DNA of 34,664 bases from Runella sp. (GTDB lineage Bacteria > Bacteroidota > Bacteroidia > Cytophagales > Spirosomataceae): contig JALQYJ010000038.1 of NCBI GenBank assembly GCA_023254175.1, forward strand, positions 1-34,664, written 5' to 3'. Every line of letters begins with the position of its first letter. Within the stretch, counting starts at the first letter, position 1. A model generated the notes under the pieces. It was not told where the DNA came from. It did not search any database and saw only the letters and a list, made by a program, of their open reading frames with translations. The position numbers and the translations under genes were made by a program. This document shows positions 28,550 through 34,160 of this stretch, one piece after another.

Positions 28550-31500
28550 TTATTCACGTGGTTCGGCTGCCATTGGCAAGTTATTATCCAAACTAAGAGT
28601 ATAGGTTTTGGTCTGCGAAAATACATCAGCCAAAAGTTTCGCTTGTTCTATTACTGTTTCTGTGGCTTTTAATTCTAAGTCTGGTGGGTAGCCGTGTTTG
28701 CGTAATATCTTCTTTACTGCTATTCTCATTTTAGCTTGGACGTTTTCACGGACTGTCCAGTCAATGCTTGTATTTCGCCTTACTGTGTCCACTAATTCCC
28801 GGGCAATGTGTCTCAAAACTTCATTGCCCAAAACGGCTACGGCACTGTCGTTCACTTCCAAAGCCGAGTAAAAAGCAAACTCTCTGAAATCAAGTCCTAA
28901 ATCTTCACCTCTACGATCGGCTTCTTTCATTTCTTTTGCCAACCGTATCATTTCTTCAATAACTTGGGCAGATGTAATCAGATTGTTTTGGTAGTTGCGG
29001 ACAGCACTGTCTAACATTTCAGAAAACTTCTTGCTCTGAACCAAGTTATTTTTTTGGCGGGTCTTTATCTCATCATTGAGTAACTTCTTCAGCAATTCGA
29101 GGGCAAGGTTTTTGTGTTGCATACCCTTTACTTCTGCTAAAAACTCATCTGACAAAATAGAAATATCAGGCTTCTTTATTCCGGCTGCATCAAAAATATC
29201 TACTACTTCATCTGCTACTACTGCATCTGATAGTATTTGCTTGATGGCTGTTTCTATTTCTTCATCACTCTTGGTTTTTCCGCTTTGAGTAACTTTTACA
29301 ATTCTTGCTTTGATGGCTTGGAACAAGCCTACTTCATCCCGAATGTCAATAGTGTATGGGTGTGGCACTGAAATGGCGAATGCCTTTGAAAGTGCTGTTA
29401 CGGCATTGATGTATCTTTCTTTTCCATTTTCTAAGCCCAAAATATAGTTGGCTGCCTGAATAGGGGAATACAGTTTTTCTTTTGGCGTTAGCCCAAAGAA
29501 ACTTTTATATCCGAAACCCTTAGGTTGAGATTTATCAGCAGGCTGTTCTGAAAACATTTGAGCCACTACTTCATACTTGCCCATCATTACCTCGGCTGCT
29601 TCGTCCTGGTCAAAGGCAGGCTTGCCTTTACCACCGCTTTCTGTGTAAACAGAAAGCGCTTTTTTTAGGTCTGTTGCAATACCAATATAATCAACCACCA
29701 AACCGCCTTCTTTGTCTTTATAAACTCGGTTTACCCTTGCTATGGCTTGCATCAGGTTATGACCTTTCATTGGCTTGTCAATGTAAAGGGTGTGCATGGC
29801 AGGTGCATCAAAACCTGTAAGCCACATATCTCTTACAATGGCTAATTTTAAAGGGTCTTTCGGGTCTTTTAATCTTTCTCCTAATGCTTTTCTTTTGGGT
29901 TTGTTTCTTACGTGGGGTTGAAACGGTAAAGGGTCGGATGACGAACCCGTCATCACCACTTTCACTACTCCTTCTGCATCATCATCACTGTGCCATTCGG
30001 GTTTTATTTTTACAATAGCACTGTATAAGTCCACACAAATTCTGCGGCTCATACATACAATCATTGCTTTTCCGTCTAAAACAGCATTACGGCTTTCGAA
30101 ATGGTTTACAATATCCTGAGCAATGAGGGCTATTCTTTGGGGGTTGCCGACTATAGCCTCCAGCCTTGCCCACTTTGCTTTTAATTTCTGGCGGTCTGTG
30201 AGTTCTTCGCTTTCGGTCAGTTCTTCAAACTCGGCATCTACTCTTGGCTTTTCTTCTTCTTTCAGTGAAATTTTTGCCAATCGGTTTTCATAGAAAATAC
30301 GAACAGTTGCTCCGTCTTCAACGGCTTGTTGAATGTCGTACACATCAACATAATCACCAAAAACAGCTTGGGTGTTCTTATCTGTATTTTCAATAGGTGT
30401 ACCTGTAAAACCAATAAAGGAAGCATGGGGCAGAGCATCTCTCATGTGTTTGGCGAAGCCATCCATAAAATCGTATTGGCTTCTGTGTGCTTCGTCTGCT
30501 ATTACTACAATGTTTCTGCGGTCTGATAGCTGCTCGTATTGTCCTTTTATGTTTTTGGTTTTGCCATCTCCTAAATCAATTTTTTCTTCAATTTCGGGCA
30601 AGAACTTTTGAATGGTGGTAAACACTATGCCCCCTGATGACACGGATAACAGGTTTTTTAGGTGATCTCTATTCTCTGCTTGTACCGGGGTTTGTCGTAA
30701 TAGCTCCTGACTGGCTGAAAAGGTATCAAACAACTGGTCGTCTAAGTCGTTTCTGTCTGTCAATACGACCAATGTGGGGTTATTGAGTGCTAATACCAAC
30801 TTACCGGCATAAAACACCATACTCAAACTTTTACCACTGCCCTGCGTGTGCCAAATTACCCCTGCCCGTTGGTCGCCGTTTTCTGCTGTGGCTTTTTTGG
30901 TGGTTTCTACTGCTTTATTTACAGCAAAATATTGATGATAGCGTGGTACTATTTTGGTGATTTGGTCTTTGTTCTGGTGAAATATGGTAAAGTGCCTAAC
31001 CAAGTCTAAAAGGACTGCCTTATTGAGCATTCCTTTGGCCATTACTTCCATTTGAGGGATATTCTCGTCTGCTACTAATTTTCCATCAATGGATTTCCAA
31101 GGCACAAAGAACTGTTTAGGAGCTGTAAGCGAACCATACAGGGCATCCCAACCATCAGAAGCAATGAGCATAGCATTGTATTGAAATAAGGATGGAATGG
31201 CTTGTTTGTAGGTTTGCAATTGATTGAATGCCGATTGAATGGTAGCGTTTTCGTCTGTGGCATTTTTGAGTTCTATTACTACCAAAGGCAAACCATTTAC
31301 AAACAAAATCACATCAGGTCGTTTGTTGGTGTTGCCTTCAATTACTGTAAACTGATTGACTACTAAAAACTCATTGTTGCTTGGGTGGGCATAATCTACT
31401 AACCAAACTTTGTCACCCGCTATTCGGTCTGCTTTGCGGTATTCTATTTCTACCCCTTCGGTGAGGTATTTGTGAAAGGTATAGTTGTTTTGAAACAAGT

Positions 31501-31738
31501 TGGGGCTATCAGAACGCAATACTTTACGCAGGGCTTCTTCTTGTGCTTCATAGGGTATGCTTGGGTTGAGTTTGGCAATGGCTTCTTGCAAGCGGTTTTT
31601 GAGTACCACTTCGTTATATTCACGTTCAGGCATTGAGCCATCTGGCGAAATGTCGGCGCCATTGATGTATAGATAGCCCAATTCGATGAACTCCTGTATT
31701 ACAACCTGCTCGATATGGTCTTCTGATATTACCCTCAT
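28550..31738 (-). CDS. hsdR: Type I restriction enzyme R subunit (HsdR)
   Basis: This 1062-aa protein is the motor and nuclease subunit of a type I restriction-modification system. The nuclease PD-(D/E)xK site is Asp142 (RPDVILFV), Glu156 and Lys158 (VIELKNA). The helicase Walker A is TQGSGKS with Lys303, and the DEAH box is residues 415-418. [22 protein letters not shown] and [15 protein letters not shown] are further SF2 motifs. The C-terminal helical part would bind HsdM. Length and order are intact, so the gene looks functional. It is last in its operon: the GxxExxY gene ends 36 bases upstream, separated by a repeat copy (31741-31787). Confidence 0.96.
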
Positions 31739-31740
31739 CT

Positions 31741-31787
31741 GTCTGAACCTTGATTTTGACCTTGATTTTCTTGATTAGCTTGATTTA
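31741..31787. repeat. Repeat copy R1, between hsdR and the GxxExxY gene
   Basis: This copy begins with the exact 15-mer GTCTGAACCTTGATT (31741-31755) and continues with further CTTGATT units. It fills the gap between the hsdR start codon and the GxxExxY stop and overlaps the last codons of the GxxExxY gene. The inverted second arm seen in the hsdS copies is absent here. Confidence 0.75.
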
Positions 31788-32179
31788 TGATTACCCTCAT
31801 TTTTTAATGAGTTGTTATGAACTCTTTTAAATTGCAAGCTTTTTGCTCCAAAGTTTATTAATAAGCCAATCTCTACATTATAAGCTTCCAGGTAATTCAT
31901 TGCTTGAGCCAAATGCACATCCTCTAAATTGATTAAGGCTTTTAGCTCCACCATTATGCAATCTTCAACAAAGAAATCTACTCGTCTGCCACCTATTCTA
32001 CTTTCTTTATAGTAAATATCCATCTCATATTCTCTTTGAAATGATAAGCCCATATTGGTCATTTCAATTTCTAATGCCCTCTGATAGATTACTTCTTGAA
32101 AGCCATTTCCTAATATTTTGTGGACTTCCATTGATGCCCCAATTATTTTTTGAGTAATGTCGCTGTATTTCATAGTCAT
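31775..32179 (-). CDS. GxxExxY family protein (PD-(D/E)xK nuclease-like)
   Basis: The 134-aa product carries the family's namesake motif at Gly26, Glu29 and Tyr32 (NGFQEVIYQ), and the nuclease-like triad Asp68 (RRVDFFV), Glu78 and Lys80 (VELKA) typical of the PDDEXK superfamily. It belongs to the GxxExxY/PDDEXK_3 group, whose function is unknown. The gene sits inside the restriction operon: its ATG overlaps the hsdS stop (TAATG), and hsdR follows 36 bases later. Met3 (ATG 32171-32173) is an alternative start. Repeats of the same family flank both sides, so it may be a mobile passenger rather than part of the enzyme complex. Confidence 0.87.
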   Translation of the reverse strand: MTMKYSDITQKIIGASMEVHKILGNGFQEVIYQRALEIEMTNMGLSFQREYEMDIYYKESRIGGRRVDFFVEDCIMVELKALINLEDVHLAQAMNYLEAYNVEIGLLINFGAKSLQFKRVHNNSLKNEGNHKSS

Positions 32180-32297
32180 TAACCTTGATTTTTAGGATTA
32201 TCTTGATTGCCTTGATTGTTGTCTGAACCTTGATTAATTTTCGCATTCTTTTTAAAATCCTTTTCATCAAGTAAATCAAGAAAATCACGGTTCAGAC
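32175..32297. repeat. Repeat copy R2, 3' end of hsdS (imperfect palindrome)
   Basis: A roughly 120-bp element. It has the left arm AACCTTGATTTTTAGGATT (from 32181), a CTTGATT series, an exact internal GTCTGAACCTTGATT (32221-32235), and the inverted right arm AATCACGGTTCAGAC (32283-32297). Bases 32181-32217 match copy R3 at 35 of 37 positions. Translated on the minus strand it ends HsdS as NQGNQDNPKNQG-stop. Confidence 0.8.
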
Positions 32298-33603
32298 CAT
32301 TTACTTCTAACTCACCGGAAATGAGTTTGGGTAAGAGGGTGTCTCTAAGAGTAGTTAGTTCGATGTTCTCTGACAAAAGATTACTTTGTAATTCCCATAA
32401 ATCATTTATTCTATCTTCAAAAGTTGATAACACAGCTTTCGGAATATCTAATAAATTTAGATTTCTAAAGTCTGTTTTATTAAACTTAAGTTGAGCCGAA
32501 CCTGATGTTATAGATTGAATTTGGTCTTGACCTTGAAAGTATTTAAAGTATAGATAAAAATAATTTGGGTGATCACTCCTAAAAAACACAAGATTGTTAC
32601 CCAATGTCAGTGGCTTCTTCAAATAAAGTGGTGGTCTAAAAACAGTTCCTACATCAGCGACATTACTTATGCAAATTTCATTTCCTATTATTCTTGATTT
32701 TGATAAAAAATTATATGTCTTCTCGTCAACATATCTTAATTGATTTGTAAAGTTTGATTTAGAATCTGTATTTCTTAAAAAAATTGCAAATGATGGTGTT
32801 TCTAATATTGTTACATTTTCTTTCAGTGATGTAAAGCTTCCATTTGCAACGAAATCAGAGACTGTATATTTATCACCTAAACGAACTAATTCCCACCCCT
32901 TCGGAATTTCCCCTAACTCACTTTCCACCATTTCGCCGCCTGATGAGCGGTAAGTGTCTGAACCTTGATTTTTAGGATTGGCTTGATTGCCTTGATTTTT
33001 ATAATTGATTTGATTTTTTTCTTTTGTGTTTATTTTTAAATCCTGTTCATCATGCAAATCAAGTGAATCATGGTTGAGACTGACCGGAAATTCAAAATCA
33101 ATAAACCACTGCTTAAAGAGGGTTTGGGCAAGGTTTTCTAACTCTTGGTTTATTTTGTTGTTGAGTTCTATTTTGTCGTCAAGGGAAGAGAGGATTTCTG
33201 CAATGGCGGTTTGGGTAGGGAGGTCTTCGGGAACTGTAACCTTAAATGGATGTATAAAATTCCTATTAAGGCTTGGAACTGCACTTCCTGAATTTAACTG
33301 AGAAAAGTCAAGGGTTTTTAAGAGATAATAAAAAAATACTGGGTCAACTTTTTTAAACTCCTTGACATAAAGAACAGTGTTATGTGCCCAAAAATTTGTT
33401 TTATGTAGTTGTGGGTTTCCAATGTTTCCACTTCTACCAATTGTAATTCCAGGTGATTTTGTTGTAAATTCATTATGAAAGCCAATAATTGAATTTGAAC
33501 CTGCAACTGGATAAATACCATCTTTCATGTCATTGCGAGGCAAATCGTGCCCCCTTTGAAATGTTACTAAATCCCCTAATTTATATTCTTTCCAGTTGGT
33601 CAT
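32179..33603 (-). CDS. hsdS: Type I restriction specificity subunit (HsdS) with in-frame repeat modules
   Basis: This 474-aa HsdS has two target-recognition halves. TRD1 spans residues 1 to about 150 (starting WKEYKLGDLVTFQRGHDL), followed by the first conserved helix (TAIAEILSSLDDKIELNNKI). TRD2 starts near GEIPKGWELVRLGDKYTV and ends before the second helix (FEDRINDLWELQSNLL). After each helix comes a low-complexity module: residues about 176-216 (LNHDSLDLHDEQDL to NQGNQANPKNQGSD) and 436-474 (LNRDFLDLLDEKDF to NQGNQDNPKNQG). These modules are the translated repeats R3 and R2. The protein dictates the DNA sequence recognised by HsdM/HsdR. It starts at ATG 33601-33603 and its TAA overlaps the next ATG. 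Confidence 0.93.
   Translation of the reverse strand: MTNWKEYKLGDLVTFQRGHDLPRNDMKDGIYPVAGSNSIIGFHNEFTTKSPGITIGRSGNIGNPQLHKTNFWAHNTVLYVKEFKKVDPVFFYYLLKTLDFSQLNSGSAVPSLNRNFIHPFKVTVPEDLPTQTAIAEILSSLDDKIELNNKINQELENLAQTLFKQWFIDFEFPVSLNHDSLDLHDEQDLKINTKEKNQINYKNQGNQANPKNQGSDTYRSSGGEMVESELGEIPKGWELVRLGDKYTVSDFVANGSFTSLKENVTILETPSFAIFLRNTDSKSNFTNQLRYVDEKTYNFLSKSRIIGNEICISNVADVGTVFRPPLYLKKPLTLGNNLVFFRSDHPNYFYLYFKYFQGQDQIQSITSGSAQLKFNKTDFRNLNLLDIPKAVLSTFEDRINDLWELQSNLLSENIELTTLRDTLLPKLISGELEVNGLNRDFLDLLDEKDFKKNAKINQGSDNNQGNQDNPKNQG
32956..33080. repeat. Repeat copy R3, inside hsdS between the two TRDs
   Basis: The 125-bp element begins with GTCTGAACCTTGATT (32956-32970, identical to R1 and the internal part of R2) and ends with the inverted AATCATGGTTGAGAC (33066-33080), making a long imperfect palindrome. 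It is translated in frame on the minus strand as residues 176-216 of HsdS, giving the same peptide pattern as R2. Confidence 0.8.
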
Positions 33604-33615
33604 AGTGTATTAATT

Positions 33616-33660
33616 GTCTGCATCTTGATTTACAAGATTTAATGATTTACTTGATTTTGT
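33616..33660. repeat. Diverged repeat copy R4, between hsdS and the Doc gene
   Basis: GTCTGCATCTTGATT (33616-33630) differs from the core 15-mer at two positions and is followed by TTGATT-type units. It lies upstream of the hsdS start codon. The right arm is not recognisable. Confidence 0.55.
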
Positions 33661-33710
33661 ATTTGCGTCCTTATGAGATTTTATTCCGGTTTTATTTTTC
33701 ATTTATTTTT

Positions 33711-34160
33711 TTAGGGTTCTAAGTTTTTCATTTTGGCATCAATAATTTTCAGTTTCAATTCTTCTGAATAATCATCTTCATAGAGTAAGGAAGTGATAAT
33801 TTCAAAAAGCAAATCTTTATCAATGCGGTTGTCCGCTACATCTACCACTATGTTTTCCATTTCAATAATGAATTTATCAATGAAAATATCTAATCCATTA
33901 ATGAATAAAAAATAAACAGAGAGTGCCAAAGATGCTCTTTTGTTTCCGTCATTGAAGCAATGGTTTTTATTGAAAGAAAACAGTAAGTGTGTTAATTTAT
34001 GCTCTATATCAGGGTAGTAAAAGTCATTTTGCATATGATACAATGTACTATCTATTAGACCTGCATCTTTGATACCCATAAAACCACCAGACTCACGGAT
34101 TATGCTATCGTGTACCTCAATGGCATAATGAGTCGTAAAATATTGAAACACGATGCTCAT
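33711..34160 (-). CDS. Death-on-curing (Doc/Fic) family toxin-like protein
   Basis: This 149-aa protein is a Doc-type Fic-fold enzyme: the active-site loop is HCFNDGNKR with His67 as the catalytic base, matching the Doc pattern HxFx(D/N)xNKR. Other family features are the GIKDAGLIDSTL helix and a C-terminal helical tail. P1 Doc inactivates translation by phosphorylating EF-Tu; the substrate of this protein is untested. The ATG overlaps the stop of the upstream gene by four bases. A Phd-type antitoxin of about 70 aa is not visible; the overlapping upstream gene is much longer. Its place inside a restriction operon suggests that it guards against loss or damage of the system. Confidence 0.88.
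   Translation of the reverse strand: MSIVFQYFTTHYAIEVHDSIIRESGGFMGIKDAGLIDSTLYHMQNDFYYPDIEHKLTHLLFSFNKNHCFNDGNKRASLALSVYFLFINGLDIFIDKFIIEMENIVVDVADNRIDKDLLFEIITSLLYEDDYSEELKLKIIDAKMKNLEP

Follow-up and report, generated by a model that had tools for sequence, protein, structure and literature searches.

GATT-type palindromic repeats at the joints of type I restriction-modification modules and their association with one clade of GxxExxY nuclease genes

Introduction

Rickettsia palindromic elements (RPEs) are described, in the part of the source dealing with them, as short palindromic repeats of about 150 bp that are translated in frame within genes (PMC10969869), and the corresponding part of a study of repetitive extragenic palindromic (REP) repeats presents these as palindromic and mostly intergenic, with some copies lying within DNA-processing genes (uvrA, dnaE2) (PMC3733652). 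On the evidence of these sections, both RPEs and intragenic REPs being concerned, in-frame palindromic repeats as such are already known. Here we analysed a 34,664-nucleotide stretch of DNA from Runella sp. (assembly GCA_023254175.1, contig JALQYJ010000038.1, positions 1 to 34,664 of the forward strand; hereafter, the window), in which a palindromic repeat lies inside and around hsdS, the specificity subunit gene of a type I restriction-modification system. We show that this repeat belongs to an interspersed palindromic DNA family, designated GATT-type, which occurs in many bacterial phyla either solo or as a composite element. Furthermore, a strong link to type I restriction-modification operons was seen both for the copies located inside genes and for one clade of GxxExxY nucleases (GNGFQEV type).

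Like RPEs, the GATT-type palindromes are inserted in frame in protein genes; they differ in that the in-frame copies were found in restriction-modification genes, in their occurrence, by record title, in many phyla and in the existence of nuclease-carrying composites. They resemble REP repeats and the associated REP-associated tyrosine transposase (RAYT) systems in being mostly situated between genes with some copies in DNA-processing genes, but their arms are not tagged GTAG or CGTC. Terminal inverted repeats, short length and a gene-free solo form are shared with miniature inverted-repeat transposable elements (MITEs), from which the family is distinguished by the lack of a clear target-site duplication and by a longer form that carries a GxxExxY nuclease gene.

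In the shuffling of type I specificity subunits, the recognition domains behave as exchangeable cassettes bounded by repeats, and in phase-variable hsdS loci such as the pneumococcal SpnD39III recombination reportedly takes place between expressed and silent hsdS copies. The window differs from such loci in that its bounding repeat is an interspersed palindrome found also far from hsdS, and a single hsdS (one match for the genome, with two domain stretches) is visible in the 34.7-kb contig, which stops about 1 kb past this gene; no recombinase search was made. To our knowledge, both the swapping of type I recognition domains and the role of GxxExxY proteins are open questions. The gene between the window arms is a clear member of TIGR04256/PF13366, for which no function was found in the open-library papers listed; in the portion of the one source concerned, a GxxExxY gene is mentioned only in passing (PMC8934634). 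Among the titles listed, the same literature yielded no description of the GATT repeat, its nuclease cargo, its place in hsd operons or palindromic hsdS linkers.

Results

Arms of the repeat at four joints of the Runella operon

On the minus strand of the window the genes are ordered as orf168, a Fic/Doc-family gene, hsdS, the GxxExxY gene and hsdR, and arms of the repeat occupy four joints: hsdR/GxxExxY, GxxExxY/hsdS, recognition domain 2/domain 1 within hsdS, and hsdS/fic. The hsdS gene (32179-33603, minus strand) encodes a type I specificity subunit of 474 amino acids with an internal and a C-terminal module (PF01420 in two stretches, E-value 9e-28), and the seam of its recognition domains 1 and 2 contains a complete in-frame palindrome of 125 bp (32956-33080; arms with E 2.6e-6 and 1.7e-4). 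Between hsdS and hsdR (28550-31738, minus strand; TIGR00348, E 3.5e-197) lies a composite element of 557 bp (31741-32297), the terminal arms of which, GTCTGAACC...GGTTCAGAC, point inward around the nuclease gene, its ends being 94% complementary. The GxxExxY gene (31775-32179, minus strand) encodes a protein of 134 amino acids (PF13366/TIGR04256) assigned to the PD-(D/E)XK nuclease superfamily by family profiles and predicted fold. At the hsdR/GxxExxY joint, the arm at 31741-31785 (plus strand; arm profile E 0.003) has its outer end two bases off the hsdR start codon. Two arm copies at the GxxExxY/hsdS joint are situated within the HsdS C-terminal coding sequence (32181-32235, plus strand; E 0.0009 for 32181 and 0.002 for 32221), together with an inward partner arm (32262-32297, minus strand; E 2.9e-7), which is 93% complementary to 32221-32235; the repeats at 32181 and 32961 are of the same repeat family and 93% alike. 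The arm at the hsdS/fic joint is single and degenerate and lies shortly before the hsdS start (33616-33660, plus strand; two mismatches to the 15-mer discussed below, arm profile E 0.003), and the Fic/Doc-family gene (33711-34160, minus strand; PF02661, E 8e-13) follows towards the contig end.

The first-pass annotation of this DNA, prepared from the letters and open reading frames alone, had been built around a 15-mer, GTCTGAACCTTGATT. Its three exact copies on the plus strand (31741, 32221 and 32956), its inverted near-copies on the minus strand (32283-32297 with one mismatch, 33066-33080 with two) and the plus-strand near-copy at 33616-33630 (two mismatches) were all verified, these six matches in the window comparing with 1.15 expected (standard deviation 1.16) and with 0 of 100 shuffles reaching six. 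The proposal that two copies form palindromes of about 120 bp held for 32956-33080; the second palindrome measures 77 bp between its 15-mers (32221-32297) and reaches about 117 bp only with the outer repeat at 32181 included. In a search of the whole genome (4.85 Mb, 199 contigs), every place with zero or one mismatch was located within this restriction locus, and at up to two mismatches there were 11 places for the 15-mer vs 5 for the reversed pattern. Folding, which had been proposed as a check, was done as single-stranded DNA with DNA parameters and 200 shuffles per repeat: both 32956-33080 (z -2.6, 3 of 200 shuffles folding as well) and 32221-32297 (z -3.7, 0 of 200) folded beyond shuffles. 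The stretches 31741-31800 (z 0.5) and 33610-33720 (z -1.0) folded by themselves no better than shuffles, and are therefore single arms or halves.

Copies inside genes

Both palindrome modules are read in frame within HsdS, as had been claimed. The palindrome at 32956-33080 corresponds to residues 177-218 of a 476-residue frame, reading SLNHDSLDLHDEQDL...NQGNQANPKNQGSD, and the second module makes up roughly the last 39 residues of the protein; they come after ...TLFKQWFIDFEFP and ...TLLPKLISGELEV, stretches which we take to be the two conserved HsdS helices. The internal copy reads as an Asn/Gln-rich linker that leaves the gene unbroken.

Ten genes had both arms in one open frame, and by Pfam 10 of 10 are restriction-modification genes: hsdS of the window and of loci L031, L037, L038, L042, L046 and L094 (L numbers denote fetched loci), an N6 methylase in L036 and N6/N4 methylases in L197 and L216. 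By a strict arm score applied to 100 distinct solo pairs, 10 pairs were placed within an open frame, of which the pair at L042 2328 (masked bases) and that of L243 (a 94-residue frame with no Pfam family) were set aside; L037, L038 and L046 fell below this score and were added from a separate analysis. The palindrome is located at the recognition-domain seam in six HsdS (window, L031, L038, L042, L046 and L094), and HsdS, with these six genes, was the only protein in which a copy was found separating two recognised domains. In L037 and L216 the palindrome precedes every recognised domain, so that the frame may truly begin further downstream, and in L036 and L197 it comes after the last one. 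Exact arms gave 41 matches in 40 frames of at least 180 amino acids, distributed by Pfam among 13 restriction-modification frames, 20 frames of other families and 7 without a family; in each of the 20 non-restriction frames the arm was before the first or after the last recognised domain.

HsdS homologues without the module (L148, L047 and L358) were aligned as had been suggested, and the insert was absent at their linker. The window reads WFIDFEFP, module, TYRSSGGEMVESELGEIPKGW, where the insert-free L148 has WFVEFEFPDKNGRPYKSSGGKMVESELGKIPEGW; in another HsdS subfamily, L094 reads AVTKGLN, module, TKMKDSGIEWLG, and the insert-free L358 has AVTKGLDPSAPMKDSGVEWLG. The insert is therefore at the same seam in two HsdS subfamilies. 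It should be added that the inter-domain linker is variable in HsdS even without the repeat, and that a closer insert-free HsdS was sought in the order of L038, where the matches besides itself were 19-43% identical and were used for linker comparison only.

A GxxExxY clade associated with arms and hsd operons

GxxExxY genes are common (186 of 395 Bacteroidota genomes), and the window protein passes the curated cut-off of TIGR04256 with 135 bits vs 35. Composites with the same layout and kind of nuclease were found in L012 (545 bp), L046 (546 bp), L031 (459 bp), L175 (509 bp) and L157 (670 bp); arm pairs of similar size have no GxxExxY gene in L201 and L150 and enclose another gene in L095 and L092. 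Among 54 distinct GxxExxY genes, 21 had an arm within 350 bp (E<0.05), all of them of GNGFQEV type and two truncated, and the GNGFQEV copies of L283, L311 and L415 had none by the same measure. GPG-type genes (GPGLLES and close variants), represented by the 30 best-scoring copies fetched, had an arm in 0 of 30 cases, and the flanks of 24 of these contained at least three CACAGAG/CGCAAAG-type words. Within TIGR04256/PF13366, GATT arms and hsd operons go with the GNGFQEV clade, and the GPG branch is mostly accompanied by CACAGAG/CGCAAAG-type repeats, which suggests that GxxExxY genes in general may travel in palindromic brackets, with one repeat type per clade.

Because many loci had been fetched by their arms, an arm-independent set was taken, consisting of the 30 fetched GxxExxY genes closest to the window protein across 390 genomes, the window's own included. 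An arm (E<0.05) was present in 20 of these 30 loci vs 0 of 30 GPG-type loci, and an hsd gene in the flanks of about 1.5 kb in 13 of 30 vs 0 of 30 (Fisher p 5e-5). In the immediate flanks (400 bp), arms stood on both sides of 12 genes, on one side of 7 and on neither side of 11 at E<0.05 (15, 9 and 6, respectively, at E<1); GPG-type genes had an arm there in 0 of 30 cases at E<0.05 and one arm in 2 of 30 at E<1. Maps were made of 12 operon-linked loci (all 13 but that of the window), and hsdS was recognised in 10; in every one of these the nuclease frame adjoins hsdS on the same strand, with at most about 370 bp between them, and it lies 3' of hsdS in 7 cases and 5' in 3.

The structure of the GxxExxY protein was predicted with a mean local confidence score (pLDDT) of 89. 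Its best Foldseek matches were 4ic1 (SSO0001, a Cas4 protein; E 5e-4, template modelling (TM) score 0.53) and Cas4 4r5q (E 1.7e-3, TM 0.49), with high root-mean-square deviation, and alkaline/RecE-type exonucleases were also among the first-ranked fold matches. A Holliday-junction resolvase as the closest fold was rejected, since none appeared in the top 50 titles, where SSO0001, Cas4 and alkaline/RecE exonucleases came first. Residues D68, E78 and K80, which we assume to be catalytic, are invariant in 11 GxxExxY sequences; a profile search against solved structures returned nothing under E 0.77. The predicted fold would fit DNA-end processing in recombination and also defence.

Several further observations concern these nucleases. 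The window genome has a second GxxExxY match elsewhere (two in total). In L148 (925-1364) inserted sequence interrupts a GxxExxY frame, next to which stands a complete solo palindrome. In the GPG-type loci L105-L134, the CACAGAG/CGCAAAG words are often inverted across the two sides of the gene. The gene enclosed by inward GATT arms in L092 (2084-3273) is Rpn/YhgA-like (PF04754, E 1.5e-4) and is a possible second cargo nuclease family; Rpn-kind recombination-promoting nucleases are already known, according to the relevant parts of two reports (PMC5350276, PMC10327210).

Operon joints and mosaic signs in other genomes

Joint maps were drawn for 17 loci chosen for having arms, and consequently show pattern rather than frequency. 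The order in L091 is gene, palindrome, hsdS, palindrome, GxxExxY, palindrome, hsdR, and in L244 it is hsdR, palindrome, GxxExxY, palindromes, hsdS, hsdM. In L095 a gene of the RhuM family (Pfam) is set off by a palindrome from hsdS on one side and from hsdM on the other, and in L034 hsdS is separated from an ORF6N gene by two palindromes and has an arm at its end. The place of the window Fic/Doc gene resembles that of RhuM in L095 and of ORF6N in L034.

Compared with L097, from another family of the phylum, the window proteins are 88% (GxxExxY), 63% (hsdR) and 31% (hsdS) identical. The two recognition domains of the window HsdS have different nearest relatives among the fetched loci: L034 for domain 1 (56%) and, for domain 2, L148 (45%), whose contig begins within hsdS, so that only domain 2 is comparable. 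The linker palindrome is absent from both; L034 has its arm at the hsdS end and its two palindromes before the hsdS start, and L148 has a palindrome 16 bp behind the hsdS frame. Four half-length hsdS pairs were found at 56-63%, among which only window/L034 is accompanied by palindromes. Taken as sequence comparisons, these data suggest that hsdS halves may have been swapped at the palindrome.

Distribution of the palindrome family and signs of mobility

GATT-type elements have the ends GTCTGAACC...GGTTCAGAC and arms in which GATT recurs roughly every 9 nt. Solo palindromes are mostly 80-130 bp long, and composites of about 450-690 bp enclose one GxxExxY clade. The exact arm GTCTGAACCnnGATTnnnnnGATT was present in 28 of 395 Bacteroidota genomes, with 0 for the reversed control among the matches listed. 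When named genomes were scanned for a related pattern, at least 116 stretches were obtained, 80 of them listed; the matches listed come from Bacteroidetes groups, Desulfobacterota groups, Spirochaetota, Nitrospirae and Fibrobacter, and further from Poribacteria, Latescibacterota, Phycisphaerales, Armatimonadetes, a Peribacter metagenome-assembled genome (MAG) and others, phylum labels being those of record titles, with contamination of MAGs possible. A further 18 stretches came from viral contigs.

Terminal inverted repeats were present in 125 inward pairs (overlapping loci counted), 90 of which were 80-139 bp long. In the named-genome and viral loci, 41 pairs of neighbouring arms had a spacing of 50-250 bp, of which 29 were inward, 3 outward and 9 pointed the same way. 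The consensus of 227 arms, fetched by that very pattern, starts with GTCTGAACC.TGATT. Flanking bases favour T (0.81 at position -1 and 0.67 at -2, n=242). No clear excess of target-site duplications over shuffled pairs was found among 96 distinct pairs at offsets 0-4 and lengths 2-9, the largest count (offset 0/0, length 4) being 5 vs 2.4. RAYT transposases were rejected as mobiliser: the 29 Y1_Tnp (PF01797) loci, found in 10 of 16 genomes, included 27 without a GATT arm, and arms at the other two were both explained by an adjoining arm-bearing hsdS. No parental transposase was found for the GATT palindromes in a check that covered RAYT.

Behind atpG in genus g24, for which 110 genomes were searched and ten regions inspected visually, both occupied and empty sites were seen. 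The site has good palindrome ends in L418, L419 and L420, is altered or part-decayed in L446, L447, L425 and L428, holds a fragment in L429 and is empty in L422 and L431; in most cases the palindrome comes after the T-run of a terminator-like hairpin. The pattern is that of an old insertion which was later lost in places or gained more than once, and does not show recent movement.

It was also observed that the predicted viral contigs L253 (2440-2880), L257 (10440-10900) and L267 (5996-6510) have at least three tandem GATT palindromes with similar spacers of about 70-80 bp, and that in two species of genus g59 (L085 and L027) arms lie directly upstream of an AMP-binding ligase gene, apparently as an orthologous copy.

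Discussion

In the best-supported reading, a MITE/REP-like palindrome is used, or tolerated, where exchangeable restriction modules join. That the family sits at the joints of restriction modules and that recombination there exchanges the modules is a proposition we judge to have slightly better than even prospects; that the palindromes cause the exchange, beyond marking the joints, is what we infer. Repeated near-palindromes at the joints would offer short homology in either orientation, and recombination between them could replace a single part, be it a recognition domain, the nuclease or an accessory gene, with the neighbours undisturbed. The GxxExxY nuclease would perhaps promote such recombination through a break or exonuclease activity, and the hsdS linker would be the scar of an exchange of this kind or of a solo insertion.

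The interpretation of the first-pass annotation, that a mobile repeat had been domesticated as a protein linker, is partly supported by these data. Mobility is consistent with the distribution and with the occupied and empty sites, on which it rests; the linker may be in use or may simply be tolerated. The composite with the GxxExxY gene, the arms at several operon joints and the inserts in methyltransferase genes had been missed.

A number of results weigh against joints that exchange modules. Arms (E<0.01) were present in just 3 of the 90 surveyed HsdS loci, these being the best PF01420 matches across 395 genomes, and joints are therefore usually formed without them. Single arms occur within hsdM frames, off the joints, in L102 (E 9e-6; HsdM by Pfam) and L100 (E 0.011). 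The 88% vs 63% identity to L097 may be accounted for by slower evolution of GxxExxY than of hsdR. Among 72 proteins, no hsdS pair combined near-identical and unrelated halves meeting at a palindrome, and a recent domain swap at the palindrome was rejected, there being no near-identical half genes in this set. On the side of the nuclease, 11 of the 30 nearest genes had no flanking arm at E<0.05 (6 at E<1) and 17 had no hsd gene nearby; these 30 loci were picked by similarity to the window protein, which could favour an operon-linked branch, and some of the proteins used as hsd references share a genome with these loci. Moreover, 5 of 29 RAYT loci of arm-bearing genomes also had an hsd gene, so that hsd neighbours are not rare.

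The most serious competitor, which we regard as clearly less probable although far from negligible, is a passive hitchhiker: a widely inserting MITE-like palindrome, often beside T-runs, would survive in genes wherever a flexible linker tolerates its residues and would have no role in shuffling, the bias towards restriction genes arising because such genes travel often and have flexible linkers. This account is favoured by the 90 of 100 distinct solo pairs that the strict arm score places outside open frames, by the T-rich flanks, by the variability of the HsdS inter-domain linker in the absence of the repeat, by the copies of genus g24 behind atpG and in other housekeeping-gene gaps, with occupied and empty sites, and by the 20 of 40 arm-overlapping frames that are non-restriction and are touched outside recognised domains. 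Flexible linkers are, however, common in proteins, and yet all ten two-arm genes belong to restriction-modification; copies between two recognised domains are confined to six HsdS genes, and hsd neighbours are missing from all 30 GPG-type loci. A regulatory role, in which the palindromes act as hairpins in the transcript (termination, processing, or translation timing among hsdS, nuclease and hsdR) and the copy within the frame has no significance of its own, seems improbable: copies do adjoin start codons, such as that of hsdR, and gene ends, and both complete window palindromes fold beyond shuffles with DNA parameters, but the single arms at 31741 and 33616 do not and the in-gene copies are translated through.

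Least probable of all, in our estimate, is selection for the Asn/Gln-rich peptide as a conserved protein linker with DNA similarity as a by-product. HsdS copies mostly use one frame (SLNxDSxDL...NQGSD), the left arm reading SLNHDSLDL or similar in most of them (SLNHDS in the window); this frame is shared by most left arms because the other two forward frames contain TGA (GTCTGA, NNTGATT), and where GGATT abolishes a TGA, in L046 and L216, another frame is read (SSESGF and TSESGF, respectively). As the first-pass annotation had held, intergenic and coding copies have a common core, the same DNA being present as extragenic palindromes and as in-frame inserts in many genomes, and outside genes in many phyla. 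Its own suggestion for refutation, mere conserved protein sequence, failed: 87 of the 90 Bacteroidota HsdS loci had no arm (E<0.01) and extragenic copies were plentiful. A universal HsdS linker was likewise rejected, as arms were found in only 3 of 90 surveyed and 3 of 29 relatives' loci at this threshold, with a single match (E 0.38) for the reversed control over all 119. What recurs is accordingly a DNA repeat and not a conserved peptide.

A stronger version of the preferred reading, with recombination at joints, would make GATT palindromes and the GxxExxY nuclease a dedicated module-exchange system, in which palindromes mark the joints, the nuclease breaks or resects DNA at them, recombination swaps cassettes and the phase of the repeat maintains the reading frame across joined recognition domains; the parts so joined would be the methylase, the restriction subunit, the nuclease, the accessory gene and each of the two recognition domains. 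We regard this version as doubtful.

Restriction operons may swap parts with the help of joint palindromes. A palindrome that sits at hsd joints, is able to form a linker in the protein and accompanies one GxxExxY clade ties the swapping of recognition domains to the role of GxxExxY proteins, and the link between palindrome, nuclease and restriction operon makes both questions testable.

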